Source of the DNA: an uncultured Sphingomonadaceae bacterium
GTDB lineage: Bacteria > Pseudomonadota > Alphaproteobacteria > Sphingomonadales > Sphingomonadaceae
NCBI GenBank assembly: GCA_947499255.1
Contig: CANMNF010000002.1
Coordinates: forward strand, 880,430-944,429
Direction of reading: 5' to 3'
Length of the DNA stretch: 64,000 nt
Position 1 is the first letter of the stretch, and every line of letters begins with the position of its first letter. Below the pieces are notes generated by a model that was given only the letters and a program-made list of their open reading frames with translations, searched no databases and had not been told where the DNA came from. Below, in pieces: positions 23,844-59,616 of this stretch. The position numbers were made by a program, and so were the translations under genes.

Positions 23844-23849
23844 ACCAGC

Positions 23850-24668: not shown

Positions 24669-25546
24669 GCCCCACAATCAGCCGCGTCGTCGATGCGAAA
24701 AGCCTGCTGGGTGAAGGCCCTGTCTGGGATGATGCGCGGCAAGTCTTGTGGTTCGTGGACATCAAGGCGAAACGCTTGTGGCAATACAATCCTGCGACAC
24801 AGGCAAGCTGGCATGCCGATGCGCCGGGCCAGATTGGCTGGGCGCTTCCTGCCAAAGGTGGCAAGCTGCTGTGCGGCTTGCAATCCGGATTGTTCGTGTT
24901 CGATCCCGACAGCCGCAATTTTGAAAAGCTTATGTCTGTATCCGGAGAGCCCGCTGGCAATCGCCTCAATGATGCCTGTACCGATCCGTGGGGCCGGGTG
25001 TGGTTCGGCTCAATGGACGATGCAGAAGACGCGAAATCGGGCCGGTTCTATATGTTTGAGGCTGGGGCGATCAAAGCGCTCGGCCCTTCGCAAATCGCTA
25101 TAACCAACGGTCCGGCGTCCTCGCCTTCCGGGGACCGCATCTACTTTACCGACACGCTGGGCAAGCAGATCATGGTCGCTGCATTAAGCCGAGATGGAAG
25201 CTTGGGCGAAATCCGCCCCTTTGCCGATATCTCAGCAGATTTTCCTGACGCGTTTCCCGATGGTCCGATTGTCGATGCCGAAGAACATGTTTGGACAGGA
25301 TTGTATCTGGGGGCAGCGGCAGCGCGCTATTCGCCGGATGGCAAGCTGGTTGAAAAGGTAGCATTGCCTGCCCGCGATATCACCAAGCTGGCTTTTGGCG
25401 GGGCGGACCTGACGACGATATTTGCAACAACGGCCACCAAGGATCTGGACGACAGTGATATGACAGCCAATTGCGCTGCAGGATCGCTGCTGGCGTTCGA
25501 TCTGGGCATTCGCGGCGCACCTGTGACGCTGGCCCGTCTGGGGTAA
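24659..25546 (+). CDS. xylC: Xylonolactonase (SMP-30/gluconolactonase family)
   Basis: A 295-residue six-bladed propeller lactonase. Motifs: LLGEGPVWDD (metal-ligand Glu), WFVDIKAKRLW, GNRLNDACTDPWGRVWFGSMDD and FPDGPIVDAEEHVWTGLY (metal-ligand Asp). It hydrolyses D-xylono-lactone from XylB to xylonate. The ORF track starts at 24509 inside xylB. ATG 24659 overlaps xylB by ten bases and starts ALSPTISRVVDAKSLLGEG, which fits the family. It is the last gene of the plus-strand operon, convergent with xylD; the 89-base gap shows a repeated CCGATTGGA but no clear terminator. Confidence 0.9.
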   Translation: MALSPTISRVVDAKSLLGEGPVWDDARQVLWFVDIKAKRLWQYNPATQASWHADAPGQIGWALPAKGGKLLCGLQSGLFVFDPDSRNFEKLMSVSGEPAGNRLNDACTDPWGRVWFGSMDDAEDAKSGRFYMFEAGAIKALGPSQIAITNGPASSPSGDRIYFTDTLGKQIMVAALSRDGSLGEIRPFADISADFPDAFPDGPIVDAEEHVWTGLYLGAAAARYSPDGKLVEKVALPARDITKLAFGGADLTTIFATTATKDLDDSDMTANCAAGSLLAFDLGIRGAPVTLARLG

Positions 25547-25635
25547 CCACCCCGATTGGACTGACACTCCGATTGGATTAACAAGCGGCGCTCACCAGAT
25601 ACTGATATTGCCAATGGTTTGGCGCCTATGGTCGA

Positions 25636-27426: not shown

Positions 27427-27829
27427 GAAGCGATCTCGCGCCGGCTGGCTATATCACGAGGGTTTTGCGTATAGTGCAGGCACCTGCCCAAGATTTGCCA
27501 CATCGTCATATCGTGCACCGTATCCTCCACACTCATATCGCCATATCTTGCCGCGATCGTGTTCATACGATCGGGACGCTGTGGCTTTGCGCAAACCTTA
27601 CTGATTTTGAAAGCCAAAAAGCATTATTTCTGTCGCAATCACCAGGAAGTCATCCCAAATCAGAAACAATCATGTCTGTGCACGGAGCATAGCTGCTGAA
27701 AACCCGTTTTGCTATCCAGCGGGTATGGTGATGAAATCCTCGTTGCCGGTTGCATCGCGGGTGCGTTGTGGTAGCTCGACGGGGAATCGCAAACGCGCCC
27801 ATCATGGCGCATAATTATCGGAGTGATCA
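27427..27829. promoter_or_regulatory. Divergent xylD/xylA control region
   Basis: This 403-base region has no supported gene. Read toward xylD (minus) it contains TTTGCGCAAA (27595-27586), then GATATGG (27547-27541), GCGATATGA (27541-27533) and ACGATATGA (27514-27506), the last ending 79 bases before xylD. It also contains a 20-bp inverted repeat at 27554-27573 (arms CGATCGT/ACGATCG). The xylA ATG at 27830 is preceded by CGGAG with six to seven bases spacing. Confidence 0.5.
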
Positions 27830-29395
27830 ATGTTGATTGACGGTCGTCTTTTTATTGCAGGCCAGAGACGAGGCGGCAGTCCTGGTTTCCGCGCGCTTGA
27901 TGTATCTACGCTGGAAGAACTGGAAGAAACCTTCACCAGTGCCAACGCGCAGGATGTCGAAACAGCGTGTGCAGCCGCTGCTGCAGCGCAAAGCGATTAC
28001 GCCTCGCGCCCGCTTGCCGAACGCGCATCGTTCCTGCGCCTTGTCGCCACTAAAATCGATGCGTTGGGCGATACCCTGACCCAGCGCGCTATGCGCGAAA
28101 GCGGCTTGCCCGAAGCGCGCCTTAATGGTGAGCGCGGACGTACCGTGGGCCAGTTGCGCCTGTTCGCCGACGAAGTTGAAAATGGCGCTTGGCAAGGCGT
28201 CCGGATAGACCATGCCGATGCCGAACGCACACCGCCCAAGCCAGATCTGCGACTGCGCATGATCCCGCTTGGTCCAGTGGCGGTTTTCGGAGCATCGAAT
28301 TTCCCGCTCGCATTTTCTGTAGCTGGCGGGGATACCGCATCTGCGCTGGCGGCTGGTTGCTGCGTCGTTGTGAAAGGCCACCCCGCGCATCCCGGCACTT
28401 CCGAACTGGTCGCAACCGCAATTACCGAAGCGGTTGCAGAAGCTGGAATGCCAGCGGGTGTGTTCTCACTGTTGAACGGCACCGATAATGCGCTTGGTGA
28501 AATGCTGGTGAAAGACCCGCATATCACTGCGGTGGGTTTTACCGGGTCACGCGGGGGCGGCCTGGCTTTGATGCAACATGCTGCAGACCGGCCTGTGCCG
28601 ATCCCCGTCTATGCAGAGATGAGCAGCATCAATCCTGTCGTGTTGTTGCCCAACAAACTTGCCGAGGCGGCAGAAGATCTTGGCCGCGGTTACGTGGGCT
28701 CGCTCACTCTGGGTGCTGGTCAGTTCTGCACCAATCCGGGTGTCGTGATCGCACTTGCTGACGAGGCGCTCGATCGCTTTTTGGCAGAAGCGGCCACTGC
28801 GATGGAAGACGTTGCTGCACAAACGATGCTGACACCGGCAATTGGTGAGACATTTGAGAAATGCGCTTCGAAAATGGCCAGTCATTCCGATGTCGAAGTG
28901 CTGCAATCGGGAAAAACTGCGGAAAAGAAATCCGGGCAGGCGCATCTGTTTGTCGTCTCAGCGGACCGCTTTATCAGCGACGACGATCTTGCCGAGGAAA
29001 TGTTTGGTCCTTCATCACTCGTTGTGAAATGCACCGATACCGCGCAAATCGCGAAAGTGCTTGAAGCCATGGAAGGCCAGCTCACCGCTAGCGTTCACAT
29101 GAATGAAGCCGATTATCCCGCAGCGCGCGAGCTTATGAGCGTACTGGAACAGCGGGCCGGGCGGATCATCGCCAATGGCTGGCCAACCGGGGTCGATGTG
29201 GCACATGCCATGGTCCATGGTGGCCCATTCCCGGCGACATCGGACGGGCGCAGCACCTCTGTCGGATCGCTTGCAATCGACCGGTTTCTACGCCCTGTGT
29301 CCTATCAGGATATGCCCGCTGAACTGCTTCCCGAAATACTTGGCGATGATCAAACGGGCGGGCTTCGCCGGATTGATGGGGAATATCGCGTTTAA
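27830..29395 (+). CDS. xylA: Alpha-ketoglutarate semialdehyde dehydrogenase
   Basis: A 521-residue aldehyde dehydrogenase of the KGSADH group, oxidising 2,5-dioxopentanoate to alpha-ketoglutarate with NAD(P)+, the final Weimberg step. Motifs: FGASNFPLAFSVAGGDTASALAAGC, VVKGHPAHPGTSE, VGFTGSRGGGLAL, the catalytic Glu in VYAEMSSINPV and Cys300 in GAGQFCTNPG. The ASNFPLAFS and KGHPAHPGTS forms are typical of KGSADH rather than generic ALDH. The symbol follows the Caulobacter Weimberg naming and is not xylose isomerase. It is monocistronic, ending in a strong terminator 57 bases downstream. It could also serve L-arabinose or uronate catabolism. Confidence 0.9.
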   Translation: MLIDGRLFIAGQRRGGSPGFRALDVSTLEELEETFTSANAQDVETACAAAAAAQSDYASRPLAERASFLRLVATKIDALGDTLTQRAMRESGLPEARLNGERGRTVGQLRLFADEVENGAWQGVRIDHADAERTPPKPDLRLRMIPLGPVAVFGASNFPLAFSVAGGDTASALAAGCCVVVKGHPAHPGTSELVATAITEAVAEAGMPAGVFSLLNGTDNALGEMLVKDPHITAVGFTGSRGGGLALMQHAADRPVPIPVYAEMSSINPVVLLPNKLAEAAEDLGRGYVGSLTLGAGQFCTNPGVVIALADEALDRFLAEAATAMEDVAAQTMLTPAIGETFEKCASKMASHSDVEVLQSGKTAEKKSGQAHLFVVSADRFISDDDLAEEMFGPSSLVVKCTDTAQIAKVLEAMEGQLTASVHMNEADYPAARELMSVLEQRAGRIIANGWPTGVDVAHAMVHGGPFPATSDGRSTSVGSLAIDRFLRPVSYQDMPAELLPEILGDDQTGGLRRIDGEYRV

Positions 29396-29633: not shown

Positions 29634-31034
29634 TTATGCCAGGGCCGCCTGATGTTCGTTCCACATCGCGGCGTAGGACGAGATATCATGGCCGAGCGGT
29701 GCAATCCGTCGCAGATCACCAACCGGGCGCAAAGATGGCTCAACCAACCGCAAGGCGCCGAAACTGACATCGTTATGTGCGTTGGCAACGAATATCTGCA
29801 GATCGGGGCGCAGGCTGGCGAGCGCGCGCACCAAAACCTCAGCTTCGGCAAAGCGGCCCTCAACCAGAAGTTTGTTTTGCGTGCCAACCAGTTCGAGCGC
29901 AGCATTGGCGACAAGCGCTGCGTAAAGGCAGGCACCTGCCCGCCGCTCGTACCAGTCTTCGGGTCTGTTGATCCATCCGCCCTCGCCAGACGGGAAAGGC
30001 CCGTTGCCAGGCGATAAAGTGGGCAGCACCATCGCGTCCGCATCCAGCACCGGACCAACCGCGGCCAGCAGATGTGGCTGGTCAGGTTTGATATCGACCT
30101 GATGTGTATCGATTTGGATTAGCGTTTCAATTTCGCGCCCGCCCATGAACCGAGCCGATGGCACCGGGACACCAAACGGGTCTACATTGACCAGGCAATC
30201 GCGGGCTTCGGGCAGATCGTGCAAGTTCACTGTGCTGCGCGCCAAACGCATGGCGATAAACCATGTGCCGGTAGATAGCACCGTGGCCTCTTCGTCCTCG
30301 ATCTGGGCAAAGCCACGCGCGGCAAGCAGCGCAGCGTTGGAATCATGCAAGCCGGCCAGAATCTGGACTTCTGACGACAGGCCGGTTTCTGCAGCGAGCT
30401 CGGGGCGCAGCGTGCCGATGATATCATCGGCACGGCGCAATGGCGCAAAGCGTTCGTCCCAGCCTTGTTTGCGCGCGAGCGAGGAAAAGCTTTGTTCGCT
30501 CACGCTCCATAAATCGGAATGACAACCCAGCGTCGTTACTTCGCTCGCTGCCACACCAGACAGGAACCAAGCCCAATATTGCGGCCAGGGCAGCAAAGTG
30601 GAGTTGGTAATATGCTCAGGGTATTCGCGATCGCTCCAATACAATTGCTGACCAAGATTAAGCCCGGCGGGCAAAGCGGGTGATCCGGTTTGTGCAAAAG
30701 GCGCGCGCATATCCCGATATGCGGCGACCACATCTGCTGGCGGCTGCGCTTCATAATCGAACGGTGCAAATGCGATCGCATGGTCTGCAATCGTGACGGC
30801 CGCCGCGCCGTGTGCGACAGCTACGATATATTCAACAGGATGGTCGGAAAATTCTTTTAGCGATGTCCGAATGAACTCGGCGATGCCTGCCTCATCAAGC
30901 CGTTCGATCCCGCCTGTGAGGACTTTTTCATTCGCACGAGAATGGTTGCCAAGAAGCGTCCCGTCCCGCGACCACAGCGTCACTTTGCTGCGCGTTTTGC
31001 CAATATCAACTACTATAGCGAAACCAGAATTCAC
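29634..31034 (-). CDS. rhaB: L-rhamnulokinase-like FGGY carbohydrate kinase
   Basis: A 466-residue FGGY-family sugar kinase of the ASKHA fold. The N-terminal phosphate-1 motif VVDIGKTRSKVTLW, VAHGAAAVTI, the LAGLHDSNAALLAARG and STGTWFIAMRL region (adenosine/phosphate loop) and LVEGRFAEAEVLVRALASL are seen. It would phosphorylate L-rhamnulose to rhamnulose-1-phosphate. The start is chosen as GTG 31034, because GGAGG lies 5-6 bases before it, rather than ATG 31067. It is divergent from rhaD with 93 bases between the starts. Assignment to rhamnulose rests on the neighbouring aldolase and isomerase; the kinase sequence itself only supports FGGY membership. Confidence 0.85.
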   Translation of the reverse strand: MNSGFAIVVDIGKTRSKVTLWSRDGTLLGNHSRANEKVLTGGIERLDEAGIAEFIRTSLKEFSDHPVEYIVAVAHGAAAVTIADHAIAFAPFDYEAQPPADVVAAYRDMRAPFAQTGSPALPAGLNLGQQLYWSDREYPEHITNSTLLPWPQYWAWFLSGVAASEVTTLGCHSDLWSVSEQSFSSLARKQGWDERFAPLRRADDIIGTLRPELAAETGLSSEVQILAGLHDSNAALLAARGFAQIEDEEATVLSTGTWFIAMRLARSTVNLHDLPEARDCLVNVDPFGVPVPSARFMGGREIETLIQIDTHQVDIKPDQPHLLAAVGPVLDADAMVLPTLSPGNGPFPSGEGGWINRPEDWYERRAGACLYAALVANAALELVGTQNKLLVEGRFAEAEVLVRALASLRPDLQIFVANAHNDVSFGALRLVEPSLRPVGDLRRIAPLGHDISSYAAMWNEHQAALA

Positions 31035-31092
31035 CCAAACCTCCGAGACGCTATTGCGGTCCAACATCGTGATCGTTGGTTAGCGAAATTGA

Positions 31093-31104
31093 TTGCAATT
31101 GCAA
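31093..31104. promoter_or_regulatory. TTGCAATTGCAA palindrome between rhaB and rhaD
   Basis: A perfect 12-bp palindrome lies in the 93-base divergent rhaB/rhaD promoter region, 23 bases before the rhaD start and 58 bases before the rhaB start. Likely a repressor operator controlling both directions. Confidence 0.45.
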
Positions 31105-31127
31105 ATGCCGGTAGATATGGCGGCGCT

Positions 31128-33239
31128 ATGAATATGCACACGACAAAGGCGGGAAAAGCCGTCTCATTCGCGATCCCTGTCAACCGTTGGGACGAACAAG
31201 AAGCATCCGGCAAGAGCGAGGCGGAATTGCTTCTATACCGCTCCAATCTTCTGGGCGCGGATTTGACTGTCACCAATTTTGGCGGTGGTAACACCTCGGC
31301 CAAAGTTATGGAAACAGACCCGCTGACCGGCGAACAGGTTGAAGTGCTGTGGGTCAAAGGATCAGGCGGCGACATCGGCTCCATGGGGCTGGATGGTTTT
31401 TCGACGCTCTATCAAGAAAAACTTCTTGCGCTTGAATCGCATTATGCAGGCGAAGAGGATGACGACAAGATGGTCGGCTTCCTGCCGCACTGCACGTTCA
31501 ATTTGAACAGCCGTGCAGCCAGTATCGACACGCCGCTGCATTCATTGCTGCCTTACAAACATATCGATCACGTCCATCCCGATGCCATCATCGCTCTGGC
31601 AGCATCCAGTGGCGGAGAAGCCGCTACCAAGGAATTGTGGGGCGAGGATATTGGCTGGTTGCCGTGGAAGCGTCCCGGTTTCACACTCGGTGTTCAGATC
31701 CGCGATTTCGCTCGTGCCAACCCGAAAGCAAAGGGCGCGATGCTGGCAGGCCATGGCATCATCTGCTGGGCCGATACGGCAAAAGATTGCTATGACCAGT
31801 CAGTTCGCCTGATTGCCGAAGCGGCCGATTTCCTGAATGCCAAGCAGGCTGCTGAAGGTGCATTTGGTGGCCCCAAAGTCGAGGTGAAGGAAGATCGCAA
31901 AGCAATAGCTGCTGATCTGATGCCGCGTCTGCGCGGGCTGATGACTGGTGCGCGTCGCAAAGTTGGCCACTTTTCGGATGATGATGCTACGCTTGAATTT
32001 GTATGCGGATCGGATTTTGAGCGGCTTGCCGCGCTTGGCACATCGTGCCCCGATCACTTCCTGCGGACCAAAATCGCGCCGCTGACACTTGATGCCGATC
32101 GTTTGACGGACGACGCTTATCTTGCGCAATCAATTGCTGATTATCGCGAAATGTATGGTGCTTATTATGAACGCTGCAAGCGCGATAATTCTCCGGCTGT
32201 ACGCGATGCTAATCCGGTGGTTGTGCTGGTTCCAGGCGTTGGCCGAATTACTTTTGCCAAAGATAAATCGACTGCGCGTATTGCGGGCGAATTCTATCTC
32301 AATGCAATCAACGTGATGCGCGGTGCCGAAGCGGTCGGTGATTATATCGCGTTGGACGAACAAGAAGCGTTCGATATCGAATACTGGCTGCTCGAAGAAG
32401 CAAAGTTGCAGCGTATGCCGGCTCCCAAGGAAATGGTCGGTAAAGTCGCTTTGGTAACCGGCGGCGCGGGCGGCATTGGTGCTGCCACTGCGCGGCAATT
32501 GCTGTCGCAGGGTGCCTGCGTGATGTTGGCCGATCTCAATGCAGATAGCGTGGAGGAAGTATCGGATGGCTTTGCCAAGTCTTTTGGCAAGGATGTGGTG
32601 CGCTTCGTGGCTTGCGATGTGACGGATGAAAGCCAGGTCGCCAATGCGATTGAGGCATGTGCGGTGGAATTTGGCGGGCTGGATATCGTGGTTGCCAATG
32701 CCGGCATTGCATCTTCTGCTCCCGTTGAAGAAACAACGCTCGCTTTGTGGGACAAGAATTTCGATGTCCTGTCGCAAGGCTATTTCCTGACCGCCAAGCA
32801 TTCCTGGCCATTGCTGAAAGCTATGGCGGAGCAGGGCGGTACGAGCGTGGTTTTCATCGGCTCGAAAAACGCGGTTGCGGCGGCCAAAAACGCTAGCGCT
32901 TATGCCAGCGCCAAAGCGGCAGCCAATCACCTTGGTCGGTGCCTGGCGCTGGAAGGTGCTGATGATGGCATTCGTGTCAACATCGTCAATCCCGATGCGG
33001 TGATCAAAGGCAGCCGGATATGGGATGGCGATTGGCGGCAGGAACGGGCCGGCGCGCACGGGATCAATGCCGGCGAGGAACTGGAAGAGCATTATCGTAA
33101 TCGCTCAATGCTCAAGCGTTCCGTTCTGCCCGAAGATATCGCTGAGGCGGTCTTCTGGCTGGCCAGCGATGCATCCGCCAAATCGACCGGCAATATGATA
33201 AACGTCGATGGCGGCAACGCTCAGGCGTTTACGCGCTAA
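31128..33239 (+). CDS. rhaD: Bifunctional L-rhamnulose-1-phosphate aldolase / L-lactaldehyde dehydrogenase
   Basis: A 703-residue fusion. Residues ~20-430 form a class II aldolase domain (NFGGGNTSAKVM, LWVKGSGGDIG, zinc-binding HIDHVHPDAIIAL, AGHGIICWAD). Residues ~437-703 form a short-chain dehydrogenase (GKVALVTGGAGGIGAATA, VANAGIAS, catalytic YASAKAA, and a C-terminal NVDGGNAQAF). The aldolase splits rhamnulose-1-P to DHAP and L-lactaldehyde, which the second domain oxidises to L-lactate. The fused form is known in rhizobia and Bacillus. The start is ATG 31128 or 31134; the track start 30942 lies in the rhaB coding region. It is followed by rhaI 28 bases downstream. Confidence 0.92.
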   Translation: MNMHTTKAGKAVSFAIPVNRWDEQEASGKSEAELLLYRSNLLGADLTVTNFGGGNTSAKVMETDPLTGEQVEVLWVKGSGGDIGSMGLDGFSTLYQEKLLALESHYAGEEDDDKMVGFLPHCTFNLNSRAASIDTPLHSLLPYKHIDHVHPDAIIALAASSGGEAATKELWGEDIGWLPWKRPGFTLGVQIRDFARANPKAKGAMLAGHGIICWADTAKDCYDQSVRLIAEAADFLNAKQAAEGAFGGPKVEVKEDRKAIAADLMPRLRGLMTGARRKVGHFSDDDATLEFVCGSDFERLAALGTSCPDHFLRTKIAPLTLDADRLTDDAYLAQSIADYREMYGAYYERCKRDNSPAVRDANPVVVLVPGVGRITFAKDKSTARIAGEFYLNAINVMRGAEAVGDYIALDEQEAFDIEYWLLEEAKLQRMPAPKEMVGKVALVTGGAGGIGAATARQLLSQGACVMLADLNADSVEEVSDGFAKSFGKDVVRFVACDVTDESQVANAIEACAVEFGGLDIVVANAGIASSAPVEETTLALWDKNFDVLSQGYFLTAKHSWPLLKAMAEQGGTSVVFIGSKNAVAAAKNASAYASAKAAANHLGRCLALEGADDGIRVNIVNPDAVIKGSRIWDGDWRQERAGAHGINAGEELEEHYRNRSMLKRSVLPEDIAEAVFWLASDASAKSTGNMINVDGGNAQAFTR

Positions 33240-33267
33240 CAGCGCAAAAGCGCGTGCGGAGAGGTTT

Positions 33268-34560
33268 ATGACACAGTTTCCAATTTCCACCGATCTGGTG
33301 GCCGAGCACAATAATGGTGACCGGCCCGCACTAGACGAAGATTATGCAGCGTTGTCTGCACGGCTTGCCCGCAAGGGTATGAATATCGATTCAATCAAGG
33401 ATCAGGTGAAGGATTTCGGCGTCGCCGTGCCAAGCTGGGGGGCAGGGCGCGGCGGAACGCGCTTCGCCAAATTCCCTCTCGCCGGTGAGCCAACCAATAT
33501 TCACGAGAAGCTGGAAGATTGTGCGGTTATCCATCAATTGGGACAAGCGACCCCAAGAGTGAGCCCGCATTTTCCTTGGGATTGCGTGGATGATTACGGT
33601 GCTTTGCGTGAAGAAGCGGCAGATCTGGGTCTGGGTTTTGACGCGGTCAATTCAAATACTTTTCAAGATCAGGTCGGACAGGCGCAAACCTATGCCACCG
33701 GCTCCCTTGCCTCAACGGTGCCGGCCACACGTGAACAGGCTGTTGCGCACAATATCGATTGTATAGAAATCGGTCGGAAGCTGGGGTCTGAATCGCTCAC
33801 CGTGTGGGTGGGTGATGGGACCAATTTTCCAGGCCAGCAAGATCTTGGCAGTTCGTTTGACCGCTATGTCGAAGCGGCGTCGCAAATTTATGCAGCGCTT
33901 CCCGATGACTGGACGATGATGCTTGAACACAAGATGTTCGAACCGGCTTTTTACTCCAGCATCATTTCTGACTGGGGCAGTTCGCTAATGGCCGCGCAAG
34001 AGCTGGGCGAAAAAGCCAAATGTCTGGTTGATCTGGGTCATCATGCGCCAAATGTGAATATTGAGCAGATTGTCGCGCGTCTCAACCGTGCCGGCAAGCT
34101 TGGCGGGTTCCATTTCAACGACAGCAAATATGGCGATGACGATCTGGATAGCGGCAGTATCAATCCTCACCAATTGTTCCTGGTATTCAATGAATTGGTA
34201 GAAGCGGCCAATAAGAGCGATGGTCCGTTCAACCCCTCCTACATGATCGATCAATCGCACAATGTGACCGACCCGATTGAAAGCATGATCTCTTCGTCCG
34301 AGACGATTGCAGGGTGTTATGCCAAGGCACTGCTTGTTGATCGCGATGCGTTGCACGCGGCGCAGCATGATAATGACGTGATGTTGGCGTTTCGCACCCT
34401 GCGCGCCGCTTACAGCACCGATGTTGCACCTATTCTGGCCATGGCACGTGCCGAAAACGGCGGGGCGATTGACTGGCTTGGCGTATATCGCAAGAGCCAG
34501 TATCGTGAGCGCAAAGCGCAAGAACGCAAGGCCGTGGGTTTGGGCGCAGGTATCGTCTGA
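33268..34560 (+). CDS. rhaI: L-rhamnose isomerase (Rhizobium/Streptomyces type)
   Basis: A 430-residue TIM-barrel isomerase converting L-rhamnose to L-rhamnulose. Features: PRVSPHFPWDCVDDYGALREEAADLGLGFDAVNSNTF-type region, VWVGDGTNFPGQQD, MLEHKMFEPAFYSSI (metal-ligand Glu and Lys), LVDLGHHAPNVNIEQIV and FHFNDSKYGDDDLDSGSI, all typical of the rhaI branch distinct from E. coli RhaA. ATG 33268 follows ggagaggttt; the track start 33208 overlaps rhaD. It forms the rhaD-rhaI operon, and the GH105 gene starts 32 bases further on, so hydrolase and catabolic genes may be co-transcribed. Confidence 0.93.
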   Translation: MTQFPISTDLVAEHNNGDRPALDEDYAALSARLARKGMNIDSIKDQVKDFGVAVPSWGAGRGGTRFAKFPLAGEPTNIHEKLEDCAVIHQLGQATPRVSPHFPWDCVDDYGALREEAADLGLGFDAVNSNTFQDQVGQAQTYATGSLASTVPATREQAVAHNIDCIEIGRKLGSESLTVWVGDGTNFPGQQDLGSSFDRYVEAASQIYAALPDDWTMMLEHKMFEPAFYSSIISDWGSSLMAAQELGEKAKCLVDLGHHAPNVNIEQIVARLNRAGKLGGFHFNDSKYGDDDLDSGSINPHQLFLVFNELVEAANKSDGPFNPSYMIDQSHNVTDPIESMISSSETIAGCYAKALLVDRDALHAAQHDNDVMLAFRTLRAAYSTDVAPILAMARAENGGAIDWLGVYRKSQYRERKAQERKAVGLGAGIV

Positions 34561-34592
34561 GCAAAACGTCCTGCAAAACTGTGGGGATGAGA

Positions 34593-35795
34593 ATGGTTGA
34601 TATGGGACGCGGGTTCCGCATGATGATCGGGGCTTTGTTGCCGGTTGGACTGGCGCTGACTGGTTGCACCGCCACCATGGCGGATCGTCCGGCAACTATG
34701 ACGCAACAAGGCCACTGGTCTCAAGCTGATGCTGCAACTGCGCTTGCGGTGGCCAATAAGGCGGCCAATTGGCAGCTGGCCAATATGGACAATCCCCAGG
34801 AGTGGATAAACTACATTTCTGGCGAAACGGAAAATCCCGTTGGCTGGGTGCAGGCAACCTTTTTGCTCGGCCTTGCTGACTATGCGGCGGCTACCAAGCA
34901 GCCCGGATATGTGGCTTGGCTTGAATCGATTGCCATGCGGGAACGATGGAAGCTGGCGAAGCGGCCGTTTCACGCTGATGACCATTTGATCGGACAGGTA
35001 TATTTCGATCTGGCTGATGCCAATGTGGAAACCGCAAACCTTGTGCCCACACGCACCGGACTTGATTATGTTCTGGCCAACCGCCCGACCAATACGCTTA
35101 TGCATCCGCAAGCCGATGGTGATCCGCGATGCCATGCGCGCTGGTGTTGGGCGGATGCCTTGTTCATGGCACCAGCGACATGGTGGGATGCTGCCAAGGC
35201 TTTCGACGATGATAAATATGCGCAGTTTGCGCATGAGGAATTTGTAGCGTCAGCCGATCTGTTGTTCGACAAGGACGAAGCCTTGTTCTTTCGTGACAGC
35301 CGCTTTTTTGACATGCGCGGAGAAGACGATGAGAAACTGTTCTGGAGCCGTGGCAATGGTTGGGTTTATGGCGGCCTTGTCAATTTGCTGCGCATAATGG
35401 ACGACAGTGATCCGCGTCGACCATATTACCGCGACCTGTTTGTCAAAATGTCCGATCGTCTTGTCGAATTGCAAACCGATAACGGCATGTGGCGCGCTTC
35501 TCTGCTTGCTACAAGCGCTACTCCACCTGAAACCAGCGGAACCGGCTTCTTCACCTATGGTTTGGCCTGGGGATTGAACGAGGGCATTTTGTCCGGGGCG
35601 CAGTATGATCGTGCTGCGAAATCGGGGTGGGATGCCTTGATGCGCAATGTGGACGAGGATGGCCGTTTGGGCTTTGTACAACAGGTCGGTGCGCGCCCTG
35701 CGGGTGTAAAGCAGGAAGACAGCCAGTATTATGGCACAGGAGCGATGCTGTTTGCGGCCTCGCAGGTCATCGAGCTGGGTTCCAACGCTCGCTAA
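34593..35795 (+). CDS. GH105/GH88-like unsaturated uronyl hydrolase (lipoprotein)
   Basis: A 400-residue (alpha/alpha)6-barrel hydrolase. The N-terminus is a lipoprotein signal with lipobox LALTGC, so it is probably anchored in the outer or inner membrane. The catalytic Asp is in RWCWADALFMAPATWW (residue ~188). Other family features are FHADDHLIGQVYFDL, LFFRDSRFFD, FWSRGNGWVYGGL and ETSGTGFFTYGLAWGLN. It removes 4,5-unsaturated uronic acid from lyase-generated oligosaccharides, often next to rhamnose. Several starts are possible (GTG 34581, ATG 34587/34593/34602); 34593 follows GGGG with six bases spacing. It lies 32 bases after rhaI, in line with rhamnose release. Confidence 0.88.
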   Translation: MVDMGRGFRMMIGALLPVGLALTGCTATMADRPATMTQQGHWSQADAATALAVANKAANWQLANMDNPQEWINYISGETENPVGWVQATFLLGLADYAAATKQPGYVAWLESIAMRERWKLAKRPFHADDHLIGQVYFDLADANVETANLVPTRTGLDYVLANRPTNTLMHPQADGDPRCHARWCWADALFMAPATWWDAAKAFDDDKYAQFAHEEFVASADLLFDKDEALFFRDSRFFDMRGEDDEKLFWSRGNGWVYGGLVNLLRIMDDSDPRRPYYRDLFVKMSDRLVELQTDNGMWRASLLATSATPPETSGTGFFTYGLAWGLNEGILSGAQYDRAAKSGWDALMRNVDEDGRLGFVQQVGARPAGVKQEDSQYYGTGAMLFAASQVIELGSNAR

Positions 35796-36209: not shown

Positions 36210-37913
36210 CTATTCGCTCAAGCGCTTCGTCAACTGATAATCGTACAGTGACGGGACTGACCGGACGGGTTCGCCGATCATTTCAGTATATGGTGCAGGC
36301 GTATATTCCAACCGTACCGGACGGTTGCTGTGAATACCCACGATCCTTGCATCGGGACCTTCGCTGCGCCCTTGCAGGACGATAGGCTGGCCTGCTGGCA
36401 CACCGCTATCGACAACAACATTCAGGTTCCAGGTCGTATTGTACCGACCATGGCCGGGCTGCCATTCGGGTGCACCGCCGCCGCGATAAATTTCATCCAT
36501 ATGTGCCCCATCCGACGCCTTGCGATCAGGGATTACGTGTACGGTGACATTGTCAAACAAGTTCTGGTGGTTCGAACCTGCATGCTGGTCGAGCGCAGGA
36601 TCTTTCCAGCCGACAACTTCCTTGAACACCGACCGAGTGGTTGCGGTGTTAAAGCTGAAGGTGTGCTGCGCTTCGTTAAAGGCGTTCACATTCTCGACCA
36701 GTACATTGTGCGACCGGCTGACATGGATTGCGTAATGCGCCCGCAAATTGCCTTCGGTGATGACGTTACGGATCGTCAGGTTCGCAGAATCATCGGACAG
36801 GATGGACGAGTCCGCACCATGCACGCGCACATTTTGCACCCAACCATTGTGGATGGATGTGAGGTACATCGCATTAAAGCCAGCTTCGTTGTGGTGTCCG
36901 AAATACGGGCTTTCCGGAAAGACGAACGCGATATCTTGAATACCGACATTGCTGATGTGGTTCCAGCCTTCGAAATTGGCGGGAATCTCATTCGTAATGG
37001 GGTGCAGCAATGGATCTGCGATGGTTACGGTTCTGCCAGAAATCGCTTCGATGCGGGTGCGTTGTTGCACGACCGGTCGCTCAGGTGTTTCCCAGTGCGC
37101 GGCACCTATACCAACATCGGTATCGCCATACATGGATTTAAGCAGCGGACCATCGGGGCCGGCGCGATTGTACCAGTTGACCCTTACAACATCGCCAACG
37201 CTCAGCTTGGACGTGTCGTCAACGGTCATCGTACGGGTGAACTGCTCGCCCGCCAGGATATTGGCGGTCGGGTTGGGCACAGGATCGAACCGTTCGATAA
37301 ATTCAGCAGGTCGGTTATTGGGCGCGCGGACCCAGATGAAGCCTCCGCTCCAGCTATATTCGGAGAACAGGCGATCAAGGTTAAGTGCCTCGTTTTTAAC
37401 GATCTTTTCGTTGACCACCATATATTCGCGAACTTCGTCGAGCGCGCCGCCATCATCGATCTGGTTGAGCGGGCGAGGCATATATATCTCGGTCCCGCCT
37501 TCACCCATTCCCATGCCGGCAAGCACGATATCGCTGCTGGTGATCCAGAGGATCTCGGTCAGCTGATAGCGACCTTTGCCAAGTTGAACTCTTACCGGGC
37601 CTTCATGCTCACTTGCAGCAGCAATCGCGGCAATCAACGCAGCACTATCATCACGGTTGTCATTGGGAACGGCACCGTAATCAGCGACATCAATAACGGC
37701 TGAGACGTGCGGGATTTCTGCCTGTCCGTATTCGTAACCGGCATAAGAGAAATCGGGCAATACCACCTCGCTCATCACTGCCTTGTCAGAGAGGATGGCG
37801 GGCATTTTGCTGTGTTCATCGGCGCTGGCAGTACCGGGCACCATGGCCATTATGGCCAGACATGCTGCACCGATTAAGCCTTTGGTGGTCAGCGAAGCTT
37901 TGTAGCTATTCAT
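36210..37913 (-). CDS. Exported right-handed beta-helix protein, candidate polysaccharide lyase/hydrolase
   Basis: A 567-residue exported protein (signal GAACLAIMAMVPGTASA). After an N-terminal linker, IDVADYGAVPNDNRDDSAALIAA is the signature start of Pectate_lyase_3/rhamnogalacturonase-epimerase-like beta-helices. Parallel-helix rungs follow (NVGIQDIAFVFP, WVQNVRVHGADSS, LTIRNVITEGN, NVLVENVNAFNEAQHTF). The His-rich DQHAGSNHQNLFDNVTVHVIPDR and DGAHMDEIYRGG segments could hold catalytic residues. I cannot assign a CAZy family. ATG 37913 has GGGAG about ten bases upstream. It is downstream of the Tat-exported GH106 gene on the same strand with 112 bases between, suggesting a joint role in polymer cleavage. 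Confidence 0.8.
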   Translation of the reverse strand: MNSYKASLTTKGLIGAACLAIMAMVPGTASADEHSKMPAILSDKAVMSEVVLPDFSYAGYEYGQAEIPHVSAVIDVADYGAVPNDNRDDSAALIAAIAAASEHEGPVRVQLGKGRYQLTEILWITSSDIVLAGMGMGEGGTEIYMPRPLNQIDDGGALDEVREYMVVNEKIVKNEALNLDRLFSEYSWSGGFIWVRAPNNRPAEFIERFDPVPNPTANILAGEQFTRTMTVDDTSKLSVGDVVRVNWYNRAGPDGPLLKSMYGDTDVGIGAAHWETPERPVVQQRTRIEAISGRTVTIADPLLHPITNEIPANFEGWNHISNVGIQDIAFVFPESPYFGHHNEAGFNAMYLTSIHNGWVQNVRVHGADSSILSDDSANLTIRNVITEGNLRAHYAIHVSRSHNVLVENVNAFNEAQHTFSFNTATTRSVFKEVVGWKDPALDQHAGSNHQNLFDNVTVHVIPDRKASDGAHMDEIYRGGGAPEWQPGHGRYNTTWNLNVVVDSGVPAGQPIVLQGRSEGPDARIVGIHSNRPVRLEYTPAPYTEMIGEPVRSVPSLYDYQLTKRLSE

Positions 37914-38025: not shown

Positions 38026-41000
38026 TCACGAGACATATTCGCGGATAAGACGCACAGGGCCCATCAACCCCGAAGGTAGCAGAGCTGAGTTTTCATCATA
38101 CGGATTGTAGATAGCCTCAACAGTTTGCGCAGGCTGTTCGGCTTTGTCACCGATCAGGCGATTGACCCACAAATTGGCCACCCGGATTTCGACGGTATTT
38201 TTACCCGGCTTTGCAAAATCAGTAACATCGATGGCAAAGGGGTATGTCCACACGACACCGGCCGTTTTTCCGTTGACCAAAACCTCGGCAATTTCTCTGA
38301 CATCGCCAAGCTCCAGCGACAGCCGCCCGCTGGGCCGCTGTTCAAGCATAAACGCGTTGTGATAGGTCGCAACGCCTGAGAAATATTTGATGTCGGGATC
38401 GCTGTGCTCGGTCCACGAGGTCAGCTCTGCAGGCGATAGGTGTTTGGGTCCGGCAAATGGCAGAGGAAATTCGACGTGCCAACCATCGTCCAAATGTGCG
38501 AGCAATTGCTGCGTTTTCGATGCGGCTGCACGTTGCTGTACCGCCGCGTCTTTGCGAAAAACCACGAACACTGCATCATTGGGAACAAGCGCACGCGCGA
38601 TAATCGTGCGGCCATTTGCGGACCGGAATGGTGCTGGCTCAATACGGCCTGTCTTGGCGCACCATATTTCCGGATCTTTGCCAGCGACCCGGAACGATAG
38701 CTCGACATCCTGCGCCGCGTCTGTCTGGCTGATAACTTGGAAAAGTTCGCCATCCTCCAATACGCGGTGAACGAACCTGATTTCCGCATCGGGAACGTTG
38801 CTTGACCATGAGAATGCCGGTTCGAACATGGTCGGCAAGACTTCTTCCAGCGTAGAATCGATCGCTCCGCCATGATCCCACATTCTCGCTGCAAGCGCGG
38901 CAAATTCGGCATGATCGTCAGCCAGGCTGGGGGTGGAGGCCGGCTTGGGACCGATGACAGGAATACCTGCGTCCAGGAATTGCGCCAATTTGCGCAGCAC
39001 AGGCAGGGTCACACGGGTGACCGAGCTGTCAATCGCTATGGCGCGATAGGCAACTCCAGCAGGCGATGTGACCCGCCCGTTTTCGGCGAACAGCGTGTTG
39101 ACCAAAGCATCGCCGTTTACAAAGTCGTAGGCATAGCCTTCTGGCACTTCGGGGGCGCGGAATTGGAACATCATGGTGATGTTGTCATCCTGACCGTAGA
39201 AATAACCAATATCGGCATTGAAGCGACCTTGTTGCAACAAGTGGCAAGAGCGCGAGAGGTAATCTACCCAAGCGCCCGCCTGCTCCGCCCAGGTTTCCCG
39301 CCGGGTGAACCATTGGCCAAAGCGGGAAAGCCCAAGCCCTGGCCCCGGTCCGAAAGTGGGTTGATGCACAGATGTGTGAACAACGATGCGGTTCAGACCG
39401 CTCGACATCATGCGGTCCGCCACCGGCTTGAGATGGCGCGGCGCGTAATGATAGGCAACCCCGCCCGTCGCCCCAGTGGTCATCGATTCAGCGGCTGTGA
39501 GATTTTGACCGTAAATATGTGCAACGGATGCAGATTCGCGGATATCGGCATCGCGCATTCCCGGTGTTGCATGCAAGAAATCGGAATCGGGCATCCAGGT
39601 TGAGCCCATGGGAATGTCAGCAGACTTTTTGACCTGCATGCCATCGGCGACAATAGCGCGCCGATCCTCATGCCCTTCGCCATAACGGCGCATCCCGCGC
39701 TCATGCAGATAGTCGGTGATTTCGCCGTAATGTTCATCCGCGATCAGATCGCCGATCGTTGCGCGCCAATCCCACAAGAAGCGATCGCTCGCTTCTGCAT
39801 TGCCAACCACATATCCTGCAAGTGCGGGGAAATAGGTTGTCGGATCATAGCCTCTGCGGGATGAAAAGCGCCCGCGCATGCCATCGGTCCAGTTCGTCGC
39901 GCCGGCTTCATAGCTGTCCGTCAACAGGTGACTTAGCCCCTGCTCCCCGATCAAGTCAGGGCCGAGAGCTTCTTCATAAAACGAAAGGTAATCCGTGATG
40001 TATTTGCGGACATGATCCTTGTTGAGCTTGTCCACTTCAAGGCCGGTAGCATCATCGGCGGCAGGGCCGTTTGTCTCGCCAGTCAAGCCATACCCCATCC
40101 GCATCACAAGCCAGCGACCCTCCGGCGCTTGCCAGTCGAGCGTTCCATCCGGCCGCATCTTGTCGGTGATTTCGATAACGGATGCAGGATCGATAACGAC
40201 CGCTGGATCGAGGGGAACCGGCTTTAACGTATGTACGTTTGGCTCGTCCCAGAAAGCCGCTTTGTCCTCGGCATAGTTGATGGTCGGTTTGCCGGACAAT
40301 TCCAGCAGATAGACCTCGTGTTCGGTGCGGTAGTCCCCGATCTTGTCGAACCCGCCCCATTTACGCCCTTCGGGATCGACTGCGATCTGCACCCTGACGC
40401 GCGTGGCGCGCCTTTCCGGCAAGGCAATTGTGCGCGGAATGATATTGGTGCCCGGCAAATTGGCAATGCGTTCAAAATCGCCATCGCCATCGGCCACTTC
40501 GACCCAGCCAACGGAGGGTTCAGATTGTCCATGATGCGAAGTGCCCCCGCTCATATACAATGTTAGCGCGCGGATGGTTTGCGGCTTATCGAAGGCAAAT
40601 TCGATCCAGACCGATTTGTCCTGTAACCGATCATACGGCATTTTAACCCCGGCTCTGAAATTACCGTCGGTTAAAAGTGCACCATCAATTGCGCCGATGC
40701 TGGAGGTAATTTTTGCGCGATCGTTCAATAGTTCAACGTCATGCTTTATGGGAAACGCGATAACATGCTGATCGCGGTAAAAGCTGACAAACGGTTCGCC
40801 ATCGATCTCGAAATGATCATTGTGCCCGCTTTCCATTGCGCCATAAGGCCCCACAACAGTTGGCGGCATGGGTAGCGGTTCGGTGCGCCGCTCACCTGCA
40901 GACATGACGGTTTCGGACCATACCAGTTTCTTGGTTGATTGCTCTGGCCGCACCCATGGCCCACCGGTCTGGCTCCACCCGGGAGACCCGGCAATGGTGA

Positions 41001-41409
41001 ATTCCAAGCCCTTCTCGTCGGCCAGATTTACGGCATGGAGCATCCTGTCCTGCCATGCAGGTGAGCGATAGGGTGCTGGATCATCGACAATCTGCACTCT
41101 GCCAAGCGCCGCATCGAAATTTTGCACGCCGCCGATACCGACCCGTTCCATCCACGCAAAATCGGCATCGATCCCGGCTTTGGAAACATTACCATTTATC
41201 CAATGCCACCAAACACGCGGGCGTGCCGCATTGGGCGGCGTCTTGAAAGCATCCTGCAGGCTTTGCTCGCCCGCAACTTGCGCATAGGATCGCACTGGTA
41301 AAAGAGAAATCGCACCGACAGCCGCTGTCGATGCCTTTAACATTCCGCGGCGGCTGAACCGGCCCAGACCAGCGCCAAATGTCTTACTGCGAGAAGCCAT
41401 TTTGTTCAT
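38026..41409 (-). CDS. GH106-like alpha-L-rhamnosidase, Tat-exported
   Basis: An 1127-residue protein with a twin-arginine signal (FSRRGMLKASTAAVGA). It shows the large GH106/glyco_hydro family layout: RPRVWWHWINGNVSKAGIDADFAWM near the N-terminus, GSPGWSQTGGPWVRPEQSTKKLVW, a DSYEAGATNWTDGM acidic motif, and AAESMTTG. The C-terminal galactose-binding-like sandwich has the ending VAEVLVNGKTAGVVW, INVTDFAKPGKNTVEIRVANLW-like and NRLIGD. It should remove terminal L-rhamnose. It is the most divergent of the four copies and the only Tat-dependent one. ATG 41409 (or 41400) is used; the longer track start adds a Cys-rich non-signal leader. It is divergent from the EF-hand gene. Confidence 0.85.
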   Translation of the reverse strand: MNKMASRSKTFGAGLGRFSRRGMLKASTAAVGAISLLPVRSYAQVAGEQSLQDAFKTPPNAARPRVWWHWINGNVSKAGIDADFAWMERVGIGGVQNFDAALGRVQIVDDPAPYRSPAWQDRMLHAVNLADEKGLEFTIAGSPGWSQTGGPWVRPEQSTKKLVWSETVMSAGERRTEPLPMPPTVVGPYGAMESGHNDHFEIDGEPFVSFYRDQHVIAFPIKHDVELLNDRAKITSSIGAIDGALLTDGNFRAGVKMPYDRLQDKSVWIEFAFDKPQTIRALTLYMSGGTSHHGQSEPSVGWVEVADGDGDFERIANLPGTNIIPRTIALPERRATRVRVQIAVDPEGRKWGGFDKIGDYRTEHEVYLLELSGKPTINYAEDKAAFWDEPNVHTLKPVPLDPAVVIDPASVIEITDKMRPDGTLDWQAPEGRWLVMRMGYGLTGETNGPAADDATGLEVDKLNKDHVRKYITDYLSFYEEALGPDLIGEQGLSHLLTDSYEAGATNWTDGMRGRFSSRRGYDPTTYFPALAGYVVGNAEASDRFLWDWRATIGDLIADEHYGEITDYLHERGMRRYGEGHEDRRAIVADGMQVKKSADIPMGSTWMPDSDFLHATPGMRDADIRESASVAHIYGQNLTAAESMTTGATGGVAYHYAPRHLKPVADRMMSSGLNRIVVHTSVHQPTFGPGPGLGLSRFGQWFTRRETWAEQAGAWVDYLSRSCHLLQQGRFNADIGYFYGQDDNITMMFQFRAPEVPEGYAYDFVNGDALVNTLFAENGRVTSPAGVAYRAIAIDSSVTRVTLPVLRKLAQFLDAGIPVIGPKPASTPSLADDHAEFAALAARMWDHGGAIDSTLEEVLPTMFEPAFSWSSNVPDAEIRFVHRVLEDGELFQVISQTDAAQDVELSFRVAGKDPEIWCAKTGRIEPAPFRSANGRTIIARALVPNDAVFVVFRKDAAVQQRAAASKTQQLLAHLDDGWHVEFPLPFAGPKHLSPAELTSWTEHSDPDIKYFSGVATYHNAFMLEQRPSGRLSLELGDVREIAEVLVNGKTAGVVWTYPFAIDVTDFAKPGKNTVEIRVANLWVNRLIGDKAEQPAQTVEAIYNPYDENSALLPSGLMGPVRLIREYVS

Positions 41410-41790
41410 TACGATGGCTTTACCGCGCGAGGATGGGCCGCGTAGGGCTGGGCCATGTGAAGCTGAATAGCCGAATTGCTCAACGCCATTCCTGACACAG
41501 CACCGTTTGCAGAAATACGGCAAGCTATGTAACCGCGATCAAGCACACAGTTTTCCAGATGATATCGCATGCAATTCTCCCGGCGATCAAAACTTATCAA
41601 ATGTGATCGCTTCTTTGGTTGGGTATATCCGCAGTATTCAGCAAGGAGTCAATTATCTGCTGATATCGCACACACTTGGTTGCAGTGCGGCAAGTTTTCG
41701 ATCTTGACCTGCAGTCAAACCTGCTCAATATCGAGCATCACCGCAGTCTCGGCCATTTGGCCTGATAGGCGCGGATTAACGGAGGATGTT
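41410..41790. promoter_or_regulatory. Divergent control region between GH106 (minus) and the EF-hand/PUL genes (plus)
   Basis: No gene is supported in these 381 bases. Seen are a GCGATCA/TGATCGC inverted repeat (41583-41610) and a possible plus promoter TTGACC-N16-CAATAT (41704-41731). The latter overlaps a TTGAC/GTCAA palindrome (41705-41718 region). The start of the EF-hand gene is preceded by GGAGG. Confidence 0.35.
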
Positions 41791-42250: not shown

Positions 42251-42329
42251 AGACCTTGGGCTTGTCGCGCCCCGCCTGCTTTCCAAGGTAACTGAAGGGG
42301 GCACGACAACCGGTAATTTGGAGTTGCTG

Positions 42330-45300
42330 ATGTCGCCTCGCGTGAAATGGGCTAAAGTGTGCATGGCTGCGATTGCGGCGGTATTGGTGACCGGCAATAC
42401 CGATGCGCCGCTTGCACAGGCGGATATCGCATCAGCTGAGGCACAATCTTCCAACGAAGCCGGGCTCTCGACAGACCTGTTCCTGGATCCGCCGCGCGAA
42501 GCTTATCCGCGGACGTGGTTTCACGCGATGAGTGGAAATATATCCAAGGAAGGCGTGACCAAAGATCTTGAGGCGATGGCAGCTATCGGCCTCAAAGGCT
42601 TCACAATGTTCCATGTTGCCAACGGCATTCCATATGGCGATGTGAAATTCGCGACCGACACCCATTTCGATATTCTTGATCATGTGGCTACCGAATCTGA
42701 ACGGCTGGGCCTCGATTTTGGATTGCACAATGCCGAAGGCTGGTCAGCAAGCGGTGGCCCTTGGGTAACGCCTGAAATGTCGATGAAGGAGATGGTCTGG
42801 ACCGCATCATTGGCTAATGGTGGAGCGATCGATATCGATTTACCGGTGCCGGTCCTGCGCAAGGACTATTTTGAGGATATCGCGGTCATCGCCTATCCGA
42901 CGCTGGCAGCGGAAAAGCGTGATCTCCAGCTCAATCCCGTGATCACCGCGTCTTCGCCCAATTTCAGAACAGATCGCTTGGGCGGGGCCGAGCGGTATGA
43001 AAGGCTTGAGGCGACCTTGGGCCCGATTACTGGGAAAAGAGGCTGGGAGAAACACGGCTGGTTGCAATATGATTTTGGCAAACCGGTAGACATCAAATCG
43101 CTTCGGCTGACATTTAGACGCGGGTCGTTTGAACTTGAACTGCAATCCAGCCTCGATGGTGAAAACTGGACATCGCACGGCAAGCTGCACAAATACCACG
43201 CTGGCAAGCGGGACCGTGTTGCTGACGAAACCTTCGCCGGGGCACCAGCGCGATATTACCGCATCTTGTCGAGCGATGATGTCCAGATTTACGCGCTTTC
43301 TTTCTCGCATATCAATGCCGTCAATGCGGTGGCTGGCCATACGGGCCTCGCCCGCGTGGAGGATTACGAATTACCTGACATTGGCTCGCCTTCTGCCGAT
43401 GCCATAATCGATCCAAAAACCGTGATCGACCTGACCAGCAAGCTGGATGAGAACGGGCGATTGAAAGCAGTTTTGCCCGCTGGCGACTGGACAATCCTGC
43501 GCTTTGGAATGACCACTACGGGCGCTATCAACGAACCGTCTTCGCCCGAAGGCCAAGGCCTGGAAATCGACAAATTTTCCAGTGATGCCGCCGATTTTCA
43601 TTACGATCAGTTTATGGGACGCGTCACGCAAAGCGTGCCCGGCACGCTCGATTACATGATGCTCGATAGTTATGAGATCGGGGGGCAGAACTGGACCAAG
43701 GGTTTCGAAAAGGCTTTCCTTGCCGAACATGGCTATGATCTGGTGCCTTATCTGCCTTTATATGCTGGCCGCTTTGTCCAAAGCGCCAAAACAAGCGAGC
43801 GTGTCTTAAGCGATAGCCGGCGGCTCAACAGCAAATTGACCGTCCAGAACTATTATGCCGCAATGCGAGAGCGTGCATACGATGATGGAATGCTCACCAT
43901 CATTGAGGCATATGGCAACGGTCCGTTCAATTATATTGATGCAGCGGGTATCGCCGATATTCCCATGGGTGAATTCTGGTTGACCCGCGATCTTGGCTCG
44001 GTTGTGGTGCCGCGCTCTGCCGCGAATACTTATGGCCGCGAACTTGTTTCAACCGAAGCGTTTACCGCCCAGCAATCGCTCAACTGGGGTTTTCATCCGG
44101 GCATGGCGCGCTCGCGTGGGGATGAAATGTGGTCGTTGGGAGCGAACGAATTCACCTTCCACCGCTTCGTGCACCAGGCCAATACGCATGTGGCCCCCGG
44201 CCTGCTCATGCATTTCTGGGGTATCAACTTTGACCGCACGCAGCCCTGGTGGGATACGGCTGCCAAAGCGTGGGTGGAATACATCGCGCGCGGACAATAC
44301 ATGCTGCGCCAAGGCGTGCCTGTAAGCGACGTTCTTTACCTCGTCGGCGATGGCGCGCCCACCGACTGCCCGCGCGAGAAAGCGGGGCAGCGCGAACTTG
44401 GTGCAAACATTGCCTATGACTGCCTCAACACTGACAGGTTGTTGGCCGGATTGAGTTTTGCCGATGGTGAAATCACCCTCGCGTCAGGCGCAATCTACGA
44501 TGCCATCGTTATTCCCAAAAGAGCGCGGTTCCTCCCGTCAACGGCGCAGGCTTTGGCGAAACTGGCAGCGCGCGGGGTCCCTATCTTTGGCGAAATGCCT
44601 AGTGAAACGATCGGGATGGCCGCTGTGCATGATGCGCAGTCATATGACATCGCTGTAGCGGCGATCAACGATGCTGCGGTGCCGCTCGCGCAGTTGAAGG
44701 ATGCAGGCTTTAGCGATCTTGTAATAGAAGGGCAGCCCGATCAGCGTAGCGCCCATCGCCGTGCCGGGACCGCCGACATTTATTTCATTCCCAACCGCGA
44801 AACAGTTTCCGGACCGGTTTCGGTCACGGTCAAGGGGGCATGCCGCGTGCCTGAATTGTGGGATGCGGACACAGGCAGCACGACCCGTCTGGCAAGTTAT
44901 ACCTGCGGCGCAGATGCCATGCAAATTCGCTACGATGCACAAGCGCTCCAAGGCACGTTCCTGGTGTTGAGGCAAGCTGCAGGCCAAGGGTATGGTACCA
45001 AGCGCATGCTCGTCATCGATGAAGGGCTAAGCATAATTGCACCTACGCCTGGAACAGCACGGGCGATTGATGGTGCATGGCAGGCAACGTTAACCGGTTG
45101 GAACGTGCCGGAACAAAAGATCACTTTGCCGCAATTGATCGATCTGAAAGATCACCCCGATAGCGCGGTGCATCATCATTCAGGCAGTATCGCATACACC
45201 ACCAATATCGATCTGCCTGCCGATTGGGTGCACTCAGCGGATCGCGTCATGCTTGATCTTGGTCAGGTGGAAGTTGCAGCAACGGTTAGCGTCAATGGCG

Positions 45301-45641
45301 TGGATCTTGGAACCGTCTGGTCTGCGCCTTACCAGCTGGATGTAACAGATGCATTGAAGACTGGCACCAATACCGTGCGTGTGCGCGTTGACAATTCGTG
45401 GGCGAACCGGCTGATCGGTGACGAAGCGTTGCCAGCGACGGACGGATACAAGCATTCAACATCATGGTCACCGCCGTTTGACATGGTCGACTGGTACAAG
45501 GAAAACCGTCCGCCGCCACCTGGTCCGCGCAGTACGTTCACGTCGTATCAATTCGTGGATGCCGATACTGCGTTGCCATCCTCTGGTCTGGTCGGTCCGG
45601 TGCAGCTGATACCTGTCGAACTGCAAGAGGTCAGACCTTAG
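42330..45641 (+). CDS. GH106-like alpha-L-rhamnosidase (copy A)
   Basis: An 1103-residue exported glycosidase with a signal-like N-terminus ([21 protein letters not shown]). GH106-type features: [38 protein letters not shown], a discoidin-like insert, [11 protein letters not shown] with Glu ~449, [10 protein letters not shown] and STEAFTA with Glu ~576. These two Glu positions are candidates for the inverting acid and base. A C-terminal beta-sandwich follows ([28 protein letters not shown]). It removes L-rhamnose from oligosaccharides. ATG 42330 is preceded by tttggag at seven bases; TTG 42318 is rejected. Tandem paralogue of the next gene. Confidence 0.87.
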
Positions 45642-45796
45642 GACTGCAACGGTTATTGCTGTTCGTCCCATTAAAGGCTTTGCGCTTGGGACGACGGCCG
45701 CCCTGCATAGCTGTGGCCCGTTGCCGCAAGATGAGGTCTTCCAATTCCGTCAAAATACGTCTATTTCAAGCAAAATAATGCAATTTGGAGAGAGAG

Positions 45797-49099: not shown

Positions 49100-49211
49100 G
49101 GCCTTAGCAAAACCCGCCGGTCAGGACATCTGTGCTGGGTGCGAGCCGGGGATGACTGACATTTGTGAGCGATAGTTGAATTCGCCGCTGAATATATTTG
49201 GAGAGCTGTCC

Positions 49212-59596: not shown

Positions 59597-59616
59597 TTAA
59601 AAGGGAGAAATTGAGG

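Follow-up and report, generated by a model that had tools for sequence, protein, structure and literature searches.

A PL29-related beta-helix protein as a probable unsaturated-uronate-releasing lyase in an ulvan-type locus of an uncultured Sphingomonadaceae bacterium

Polysaccharide lyase family 29 (PL29) is a family known from gut Bacteroides and animal glycosaminoglycans (GAG). Its founder, BT3328 (BtCDH) of Bacteroides thetaiotaomicron, is a surface lyase acting on chondroitin sulfate and hyaluronan, carries an N-terminal spacer of ~300 aa (PMC6994673) and is endo-acting (PMC9067506). For ulvan, whose sugars are rhamnose, xylose and uronate, the only lyases listed on the ulvan plasmid pAlt76 of Alteromonas sp. 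76-1 belong to PL24 and PL25 (Table 2, dbCAN2; PMC6431674). The isomerases of unsaturated uronate (DHU), KduI and DhuI, are isofunctional, and PMC12838403 reports the dhuI-kduD pair (type G cluster) only in Sphingomonadaceae and Erythrobacteraceae; its available text names no lyase that feeds these clusters.

The window analysed here is a stretch of 64,000 nucleotides from an uncultured Sphingomonadaceae bacterium. An uninterrupted ORF on its minus strand (ATG at 37913, stop at 36210-36212) encodes a beta-helix protein of 567 aa, hereafter BH (Table 1). The N-terminus resembles a type I signal peptide (ending in GTASA, followed by DE) without a lipobox Cys, and BH is therefore predicted to be periplasmic or secreted. 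Pfam searches detected PF12708 (Pect-lyase_RHGA_epim) above the cut-off (E 1.7e-7), DUF4955 just under the cut-off and a weak Beta_helix match; the PL6 catalytic domain PF14592 and Glyco_hydro_28 were not found. The AlphaFold2 model is a right-handed beta-helix (pLDDT 83, pTM 0.87), and the BNR_4 beta-propeller of PL24/PL25 was found neither in this model nor by Pfam. The exported Pectate_lyase_3-type beta-helix described in an earlier, sequence-only reading of this DNA was thus borne out. Foldseek searches with the model gave fold-level matches only (best TM about 0.43 by query length), in which lyases were mixed with GH28 and GH110 hydrolases, adhesins and epimerases, including mannuronan C5-epimerases, so that lyase, hydrolase and epimerase cannot be separated by comparing the modelled fold alone. 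Searches of the PDB with phmmer and with profiles gave matches essentially confined to the N-terminal cap in other beta-helix proteins.

BH and the GH106 gene upstream of it are likely to share one transcript, judging from their common strand and the 112-bp gap. The gene set at 20896-29395 would fit xylose oxidation by a Weimberg-type route, and the best reading of the locus is an ulvan-type one that would handle rhamnose and xylose. Pfam scans of the 28 main ORFs of the window matched no known polysaccharide lyase family, in agreement with the earlier reading. Past the right edge of the window lie a second BH copy (about 41% identical), a third GH105 gene and two sulfatase genes. BH had also been described as the only exported protein with a lyase-compatible fold: a second exported, repeat-rich protein starts at 59611, but it does not resemble an enzyme. 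This autotransporter-like protein (from 59611 past the window edge to 64176, about 1520 aa, beta-barrel C-terminus) is encoded beside the TonB-dependent receptor and is a possible adhesin.

Table 1. Coordinates of BH, its segments and motifs, and neighbouring genes (positions in the window)
Feature	Coordinates	Strand	Basis
BH, beta-helix protein, 567 aa, PL29-related	36210..37913	-	ORF, Pfam, AlphaFold2, NCBIfam
BH signal peptide, about residues 1-31, no lipobox Cys	37821..37913	-	sequence; pLDDT <50 there
BH beta-helix N-terminal cap, PF12708, residues 74-137	37503..37694	-	Pfam
BH best stretch against NF058554, residues 281-416 (model 533-671)	36666..37073	-	NCBIfam
GHHNE motif, residues 339-343; HH common to PL29-type proteins	36885..36899	-	alignments
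H393-Y394; H393 common to PL29-type proteins	36732..36737	-	alignments
HTFSFNT, residues 417-423; H417 common to PL29-type proteins	36645..36665	-	alignments
BH C-terminal DUF4955-like segment, residues 425-566	36216..36641	-	Pfam
DQHAGSNHQN, residues 442-451; H444 common to PL29-type proteins, remainder clade-specific	36561..36590	-	alignments
Sugar transporter (MFS), FAH-type hydrolase, SDR, SMP30 lactonase, IlvD/EDD dehydratase, aldehyde dehydrogenase	20896..29395		family matches
Putative rhamnose-type catabolism: FGGY kinase (-), class II aldolase/SDR fusion (+), xylose-isomerase-like isomerase (+)	29634..34560		family matches; pathway predicted from them
GH105-type unsaturated uronyl hydrolase (PF07470)	34581..35795	+	Pfam
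GH106 alpha-L-rhamnosidase, 112 bp upstream of BH	38026..41523	-	Pfam; spacing
GH106 alpha-L-rhamnosidase	42318..45641	+	Pfam
GH106 alpha-L-rhamnosidase	45785..49099	+	Pfam
Sulfatase (PF00884)	49176..50723	+	Pfam
GH105-type unsaturated uronyl hydrolase	50828..52072	+	Pfam
GH106 alpha-L-rhamnosidase	52200..55634	+	Pfam
TonB-dependent receptor	56048..59506	+	Pfam

BH is homologous to the PL29 founder and to DUF4955 proteins. It matched the NCBIfam model NF058554 (BT3328) with E 2.7e-24 and 85.5 bits, and the model was also matched by 49/49 relatives (best E 1e-33), all far under its equivalog cut-off of 1100 bits, a threshold that no genome in a sample of 399 from the phylum passed. All four BH copies of the source genome matched it colinearly. 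With a score of 85 against 1100 bits, BH is to be read as a distant relative of PL29 and not as an equivalent enzyme; the proposal of a new family holds as far as this distance goes, yet the kinship with PL29 speaks against a family without known relatives. BLAST, as an independent line, matched BH to a DUF4955 protein from Flammeovirga (E 8e-28) and to one from Bacteroides finegoldii (E 2e-15); in B. finegoldii the DUF4955 genes adjoin genes for PL29 N-domain proteins and for a chondroitinase. Identity to these Bacteroides/Flammeovirga relatives is about 21-25%. BH shares with PL29 the colinearity with the model and the DUF4955-type C-terminus; unlike BT3328, it lacks the N-terminal spacer and is no lipoprotein, and its neighbourhood consists of GH106/GH105/sulfatase or TRAP/Kdu genes instead of a GAG utilisation locus with PL8 and GH88. 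A Bacteroides DUF4955 protein gave no sequence match in the PDB, and none of the papers searched mentions DUF4955.

In a 15-sequence PL29-plus-BH alignment, H340, H341, W358, H393, H417, H444, L452, W495 and N496 were invariant, and H340, H341, H393, H417, H444, W495 and N496 are common to DUF4955 proteins related to PL29. Between the BH clade and the Bacteroides DUF4955 proteins, the shared histidines are H341, H393, H417 and H444, with H340 conserved nearly always. H393, H417 and H444 are spaced by 24 and 27 residues, about one helix coil each, a spacing that suggests a stack on one face of the beta-helix. The sequence-only reading had singled out the His/Asp-rich segment DQHAGSNHQN; D442, Q443, H444, N448, Q450, N451 and D454 are invariant across 49 BH relatives, a conservation far beyond chance, but only H444 is common to PL29-type proteins and the other shared histidines lie elsewhere. 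There is no Lys that is invariant across the 49 relatives, and the catalytic base is therefore a guess and would differ from that of PL1/PL6.

Among the genome contigs scanned, 43 BH loci were detected, mainly from Erythrobacteraceae and other Sphingomonadales, and also from marine bacteria of Hyphomonadaceae/Robiginitomaculaceae type, Arenicella and Glaciecola; plasmid records added relatives from Alteromonas sp. 76-1, Catenovulum, Niveispirillum and Asticcacaulis. Neighbouring genes were clustered over 49 loci with BH. The most frequent neighbours were an SDR reductase (38 loci), a 265-aa protein (36) and a TonB-dependent receptor (35), followed by DctM and DctP (32 each), LacI (27), an RpiB-type, DhuI-type isomerase (24), KdgK (12), KduI (7), GH105 (6) and PL6 (5). 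KduI (cluster 11) was recognised by sequence and because an annotated kduI occupies the same setting in Catenovulum. The RpiB-type isomerase and KduI never occurred together, and one or the other was present in 31/49 loci; cluster members for GH105, PL6, PL17 and PL25 were absent from the stretch examined in 22 of these 31. A few relatives adjoin rhamnose genes and GH105. In a maximum-likelihood tree (quick, with several long branches), the BH of the window grouped with the other copies of its genome, within a group of Erythrobacteraceae whose loci are mostly TRAP/Kdu-linked, a label that includes every locus not otherwise labelled. From this position, the GH105/rhamnose neighbourhood of the window looks secondary.

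The partner genes point to DHU metabolism. The RpiB-type partner matched S. agalactiae gbs1892 (4u8e; E 2e-80), which we take to be DhuI, and the SDR partner matched a KduD-like 2-deoxy-D-gluconate 3-dehydrogenase (4z9y; E 1e-94). DhuI-type RpiB and KduD-like SDR genes are paired in 24 Sphingomonadales BH loci (e.g. L014:12672-14135), the isomerase-reductase pair of the type G clusters (PMC12838403). The 265-aa (~260) partner is encoded beside TRAP and DHU genes (e.g. L014:11841-12596, +) and gave no Pfam or NCBIfam match where tested. With E-values of 2e-10 to 1e-5, its profile matched 4-oxalocrotonate decarboxylase and 2-keto-4-pentenoate hydratase; the predicted structure (pLDDT 95) matched E. 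coli MhpD (TM 0.78). Invariant K55, E103, E105 and E124 (alignment A3) resemble what we take to be the MhpD active site. This conserved, cytosolic, MhpD-like protein may carry out the hydration or ring opening of unsaturated uronate, possibly a new step in its metabolism; among small ORFs near BH, looked at as KdgF candidates, none was widely conserved. Taken together by gene content, the isomerase and the KduD-like reductase, TRAP transporter and MhpD-like hydratase that usually accompany it would form a pathway for free unsaturated uronate.

Independence from GH105 was also seen at genome level. GH88/105, BNR_4, PL6, PL20 and PL22 were searched in 17 genomes with BH: GH88/GH105 and BNR_4 were both present in the same four genomes and both absent from the other 13, and PL20 and PL22 were absent from all 17. 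The DHU genes beside BH hence need another source of uronate in most carriers, and BH is the obvious candidate. Alginate had come into view as a general substrate through the PL6/PL17 genes near some copies; it was rejected, since PL6 is missing from 6/17 genomes and since the KduI/DhuI step is the one that PMC12838403 describes for pectin- and GAG-derived DHU.

On another contig of the source genome, a large locus carries PL6 and PL17 besides GH105, KduI, a sulfatase, an SDR reductase, a DhuI-type isomerase and a TRAP transporter. It also encodes a PL25 ulvan lyase (match to 5uam, E 5.5e-175) adjoining a BH paralogue that is 64% identical to the BH of the window; the PL6 of this genome is a gene distinct from BH. 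PL24/PL25 ulvan lyases occur in the same loci, or on the same plasmid, as BH relatives and presumably share the polymer substrate with them, but as BNR_4 beta-propellers they are unrelated to BH. A BNR_4 protein of the same genome (L100:16562-18058, +) adjoins GH105 and KduI; its best PDB matches were the 5muk/5mum/4irt group (E 8.5e-40), presumably GH145-type, with weaker likeness to L-rhamnose-alpha-1,4-D-glucuronate lyase (7esk). A DUF4861 protein (L014:1372-2328, -) adjoins a sulfatase in the ulvan/alginate locus of this genome.

The sequence-only reading had proposed that BH is the missing lyase on which GH105 depends. An endo-acting ulvan lyase making the unsaturated ends needed by the neighbouring GH105 would fit the position of BH between GH105 and GH106 genes, the relatives beside rhamnose genes and GH105, the TBDR-GH88-BH gene order in Catenovulum and the endo-action of the PL29 founder (PMC9067506). 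We consider this role unlikely: 13/17 BH genomes have no GH88/105, the genomes with GH105 also carry BNR_4-type proteins, the source genome has its own PL25, and the GH105-linked copies sit in a tree group that is otherwise TRAP/Kdu-linked. The usual partners of BH are DHU/TRAP genes and not GH105, and the idea of a missing GH105 supplier was not supported. The absence of GH105 from most BH genomes also bears on the idea that BH resembles P29_PDnc of Formosa agariphila, an oligosaccharide dehydratase, and would turn a terminal GlcA/IdoA into its unsaturated form and leave the chain uncut. Ulvan loci do contain such enzymes, whose chemistry is believed to be of the lyase type (PMC8511951), as proposed for BH, and GH105 is near BH in some loci; but P29_PDnc acts with GH105, the next enzyme of that route, and requires D, R and K (PMC8511951), whereas the BH family, compared by description, has other catalytic residues and no invariant Lys, which makes a dehydratase highly unlikely.

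That BH is an inverting, GH28-like beta-helix hydrolase releasing saturated uronate or rhamnose is suggested by the RefSeq label of its homologues ('glycosyl hydrolase family 28-related'), by weak matches to a rhamnogalacturonidase model in 8/49 relatives and by the GH28 and GH110 structures among the Foldseek matches. The PL29 model, however, matches all members and more strongly (1e-33 against 3e-6), no Glyco_hydro_28 Pfam match exists in BH, and the partner genes act on unsaturated, not saturated, uronates; a hydrolase is accordingly quite improbable in our judgement. Adhesins and mannuronan C5-epimerases among the Foldseek matches would allow BH to be an epimerase, or to bind uronan without being an enzyme, readings for which we see the slimmest of chances given the invariant polar residues common to BH and the lyase model and the consistent catabolic operon context.

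The NF058554 matches, the DUF4955 segment and the histidines common to DUF4955 proteins encoded beside a chondroitinase gene make BH a likely lyase, as the earlier reading had surmised. BH is probably a periplasmic, PL29-related lyase that acts on oligomers rich in GlcA/IdoA and frees unsaturated uronate from them; its locus here is of ulvan type. Oligosaccharides would enter through the TonB-dependent receptor; BH would bind a uronate, most likely GlcA or IdoA, along the groove of the beta-helix, and the conserved histidine stack would abstract H5 and eliminate the 4-O-linked group. The product would be either an unsaturated uronate or a short oligomer that is likewise unsaturated. The lyase activity, the exo or short-oligomer mode, the ulvan/glucuronan-type substrate and the role of each histidine are what we infer from these comparisons, and substrates may differ between clades. 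Within the window, BH would work beside GH105, GH106 and the sulfatases without being their sole supplier. BH could be the uronate source for the dhuI-kduD clusters of Sphingomonadaceae and Erythrobacteraceae. A wider proposal, more tentative and in our view rather doubtful, is that BH represents a new PL family, sister of PL29, which frees monomeric unsaturated glucuronate/iduronate from green-algal uronan/ulvan oligomers without GH88/GH105 and feeds the dhuI-kduD clusters of marine Sphingomonadales, with the MhpD-like hydratase as an unrecognised ring-opening/hydration step. If true, it would explain the origin of the unsaturated uronate that these clusters use, and a widespread marine clade with the PL29 histidines would extend the PL29 fold and chemistry to algal polysaccharides.

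A relative open to direct assay is encoded on the ulvan plasmid pAlt76: ALT761_RS20535, annotated as a 'glycosyl hydrolase family 28-related protein' and so far uncharacterised, has BNR-4 and sulfatase genes as neighbours; it is 43% identical to BH over 97% of the length and is a true member of the family. A Paraglaciecola locus (L064:4750-11578) holds three ORFs in 7 kb, at least two of them showing, close to the N-terminus, a BH signature of LPDFSYAGY type, which suggests several BH-like paralogues in one locus.
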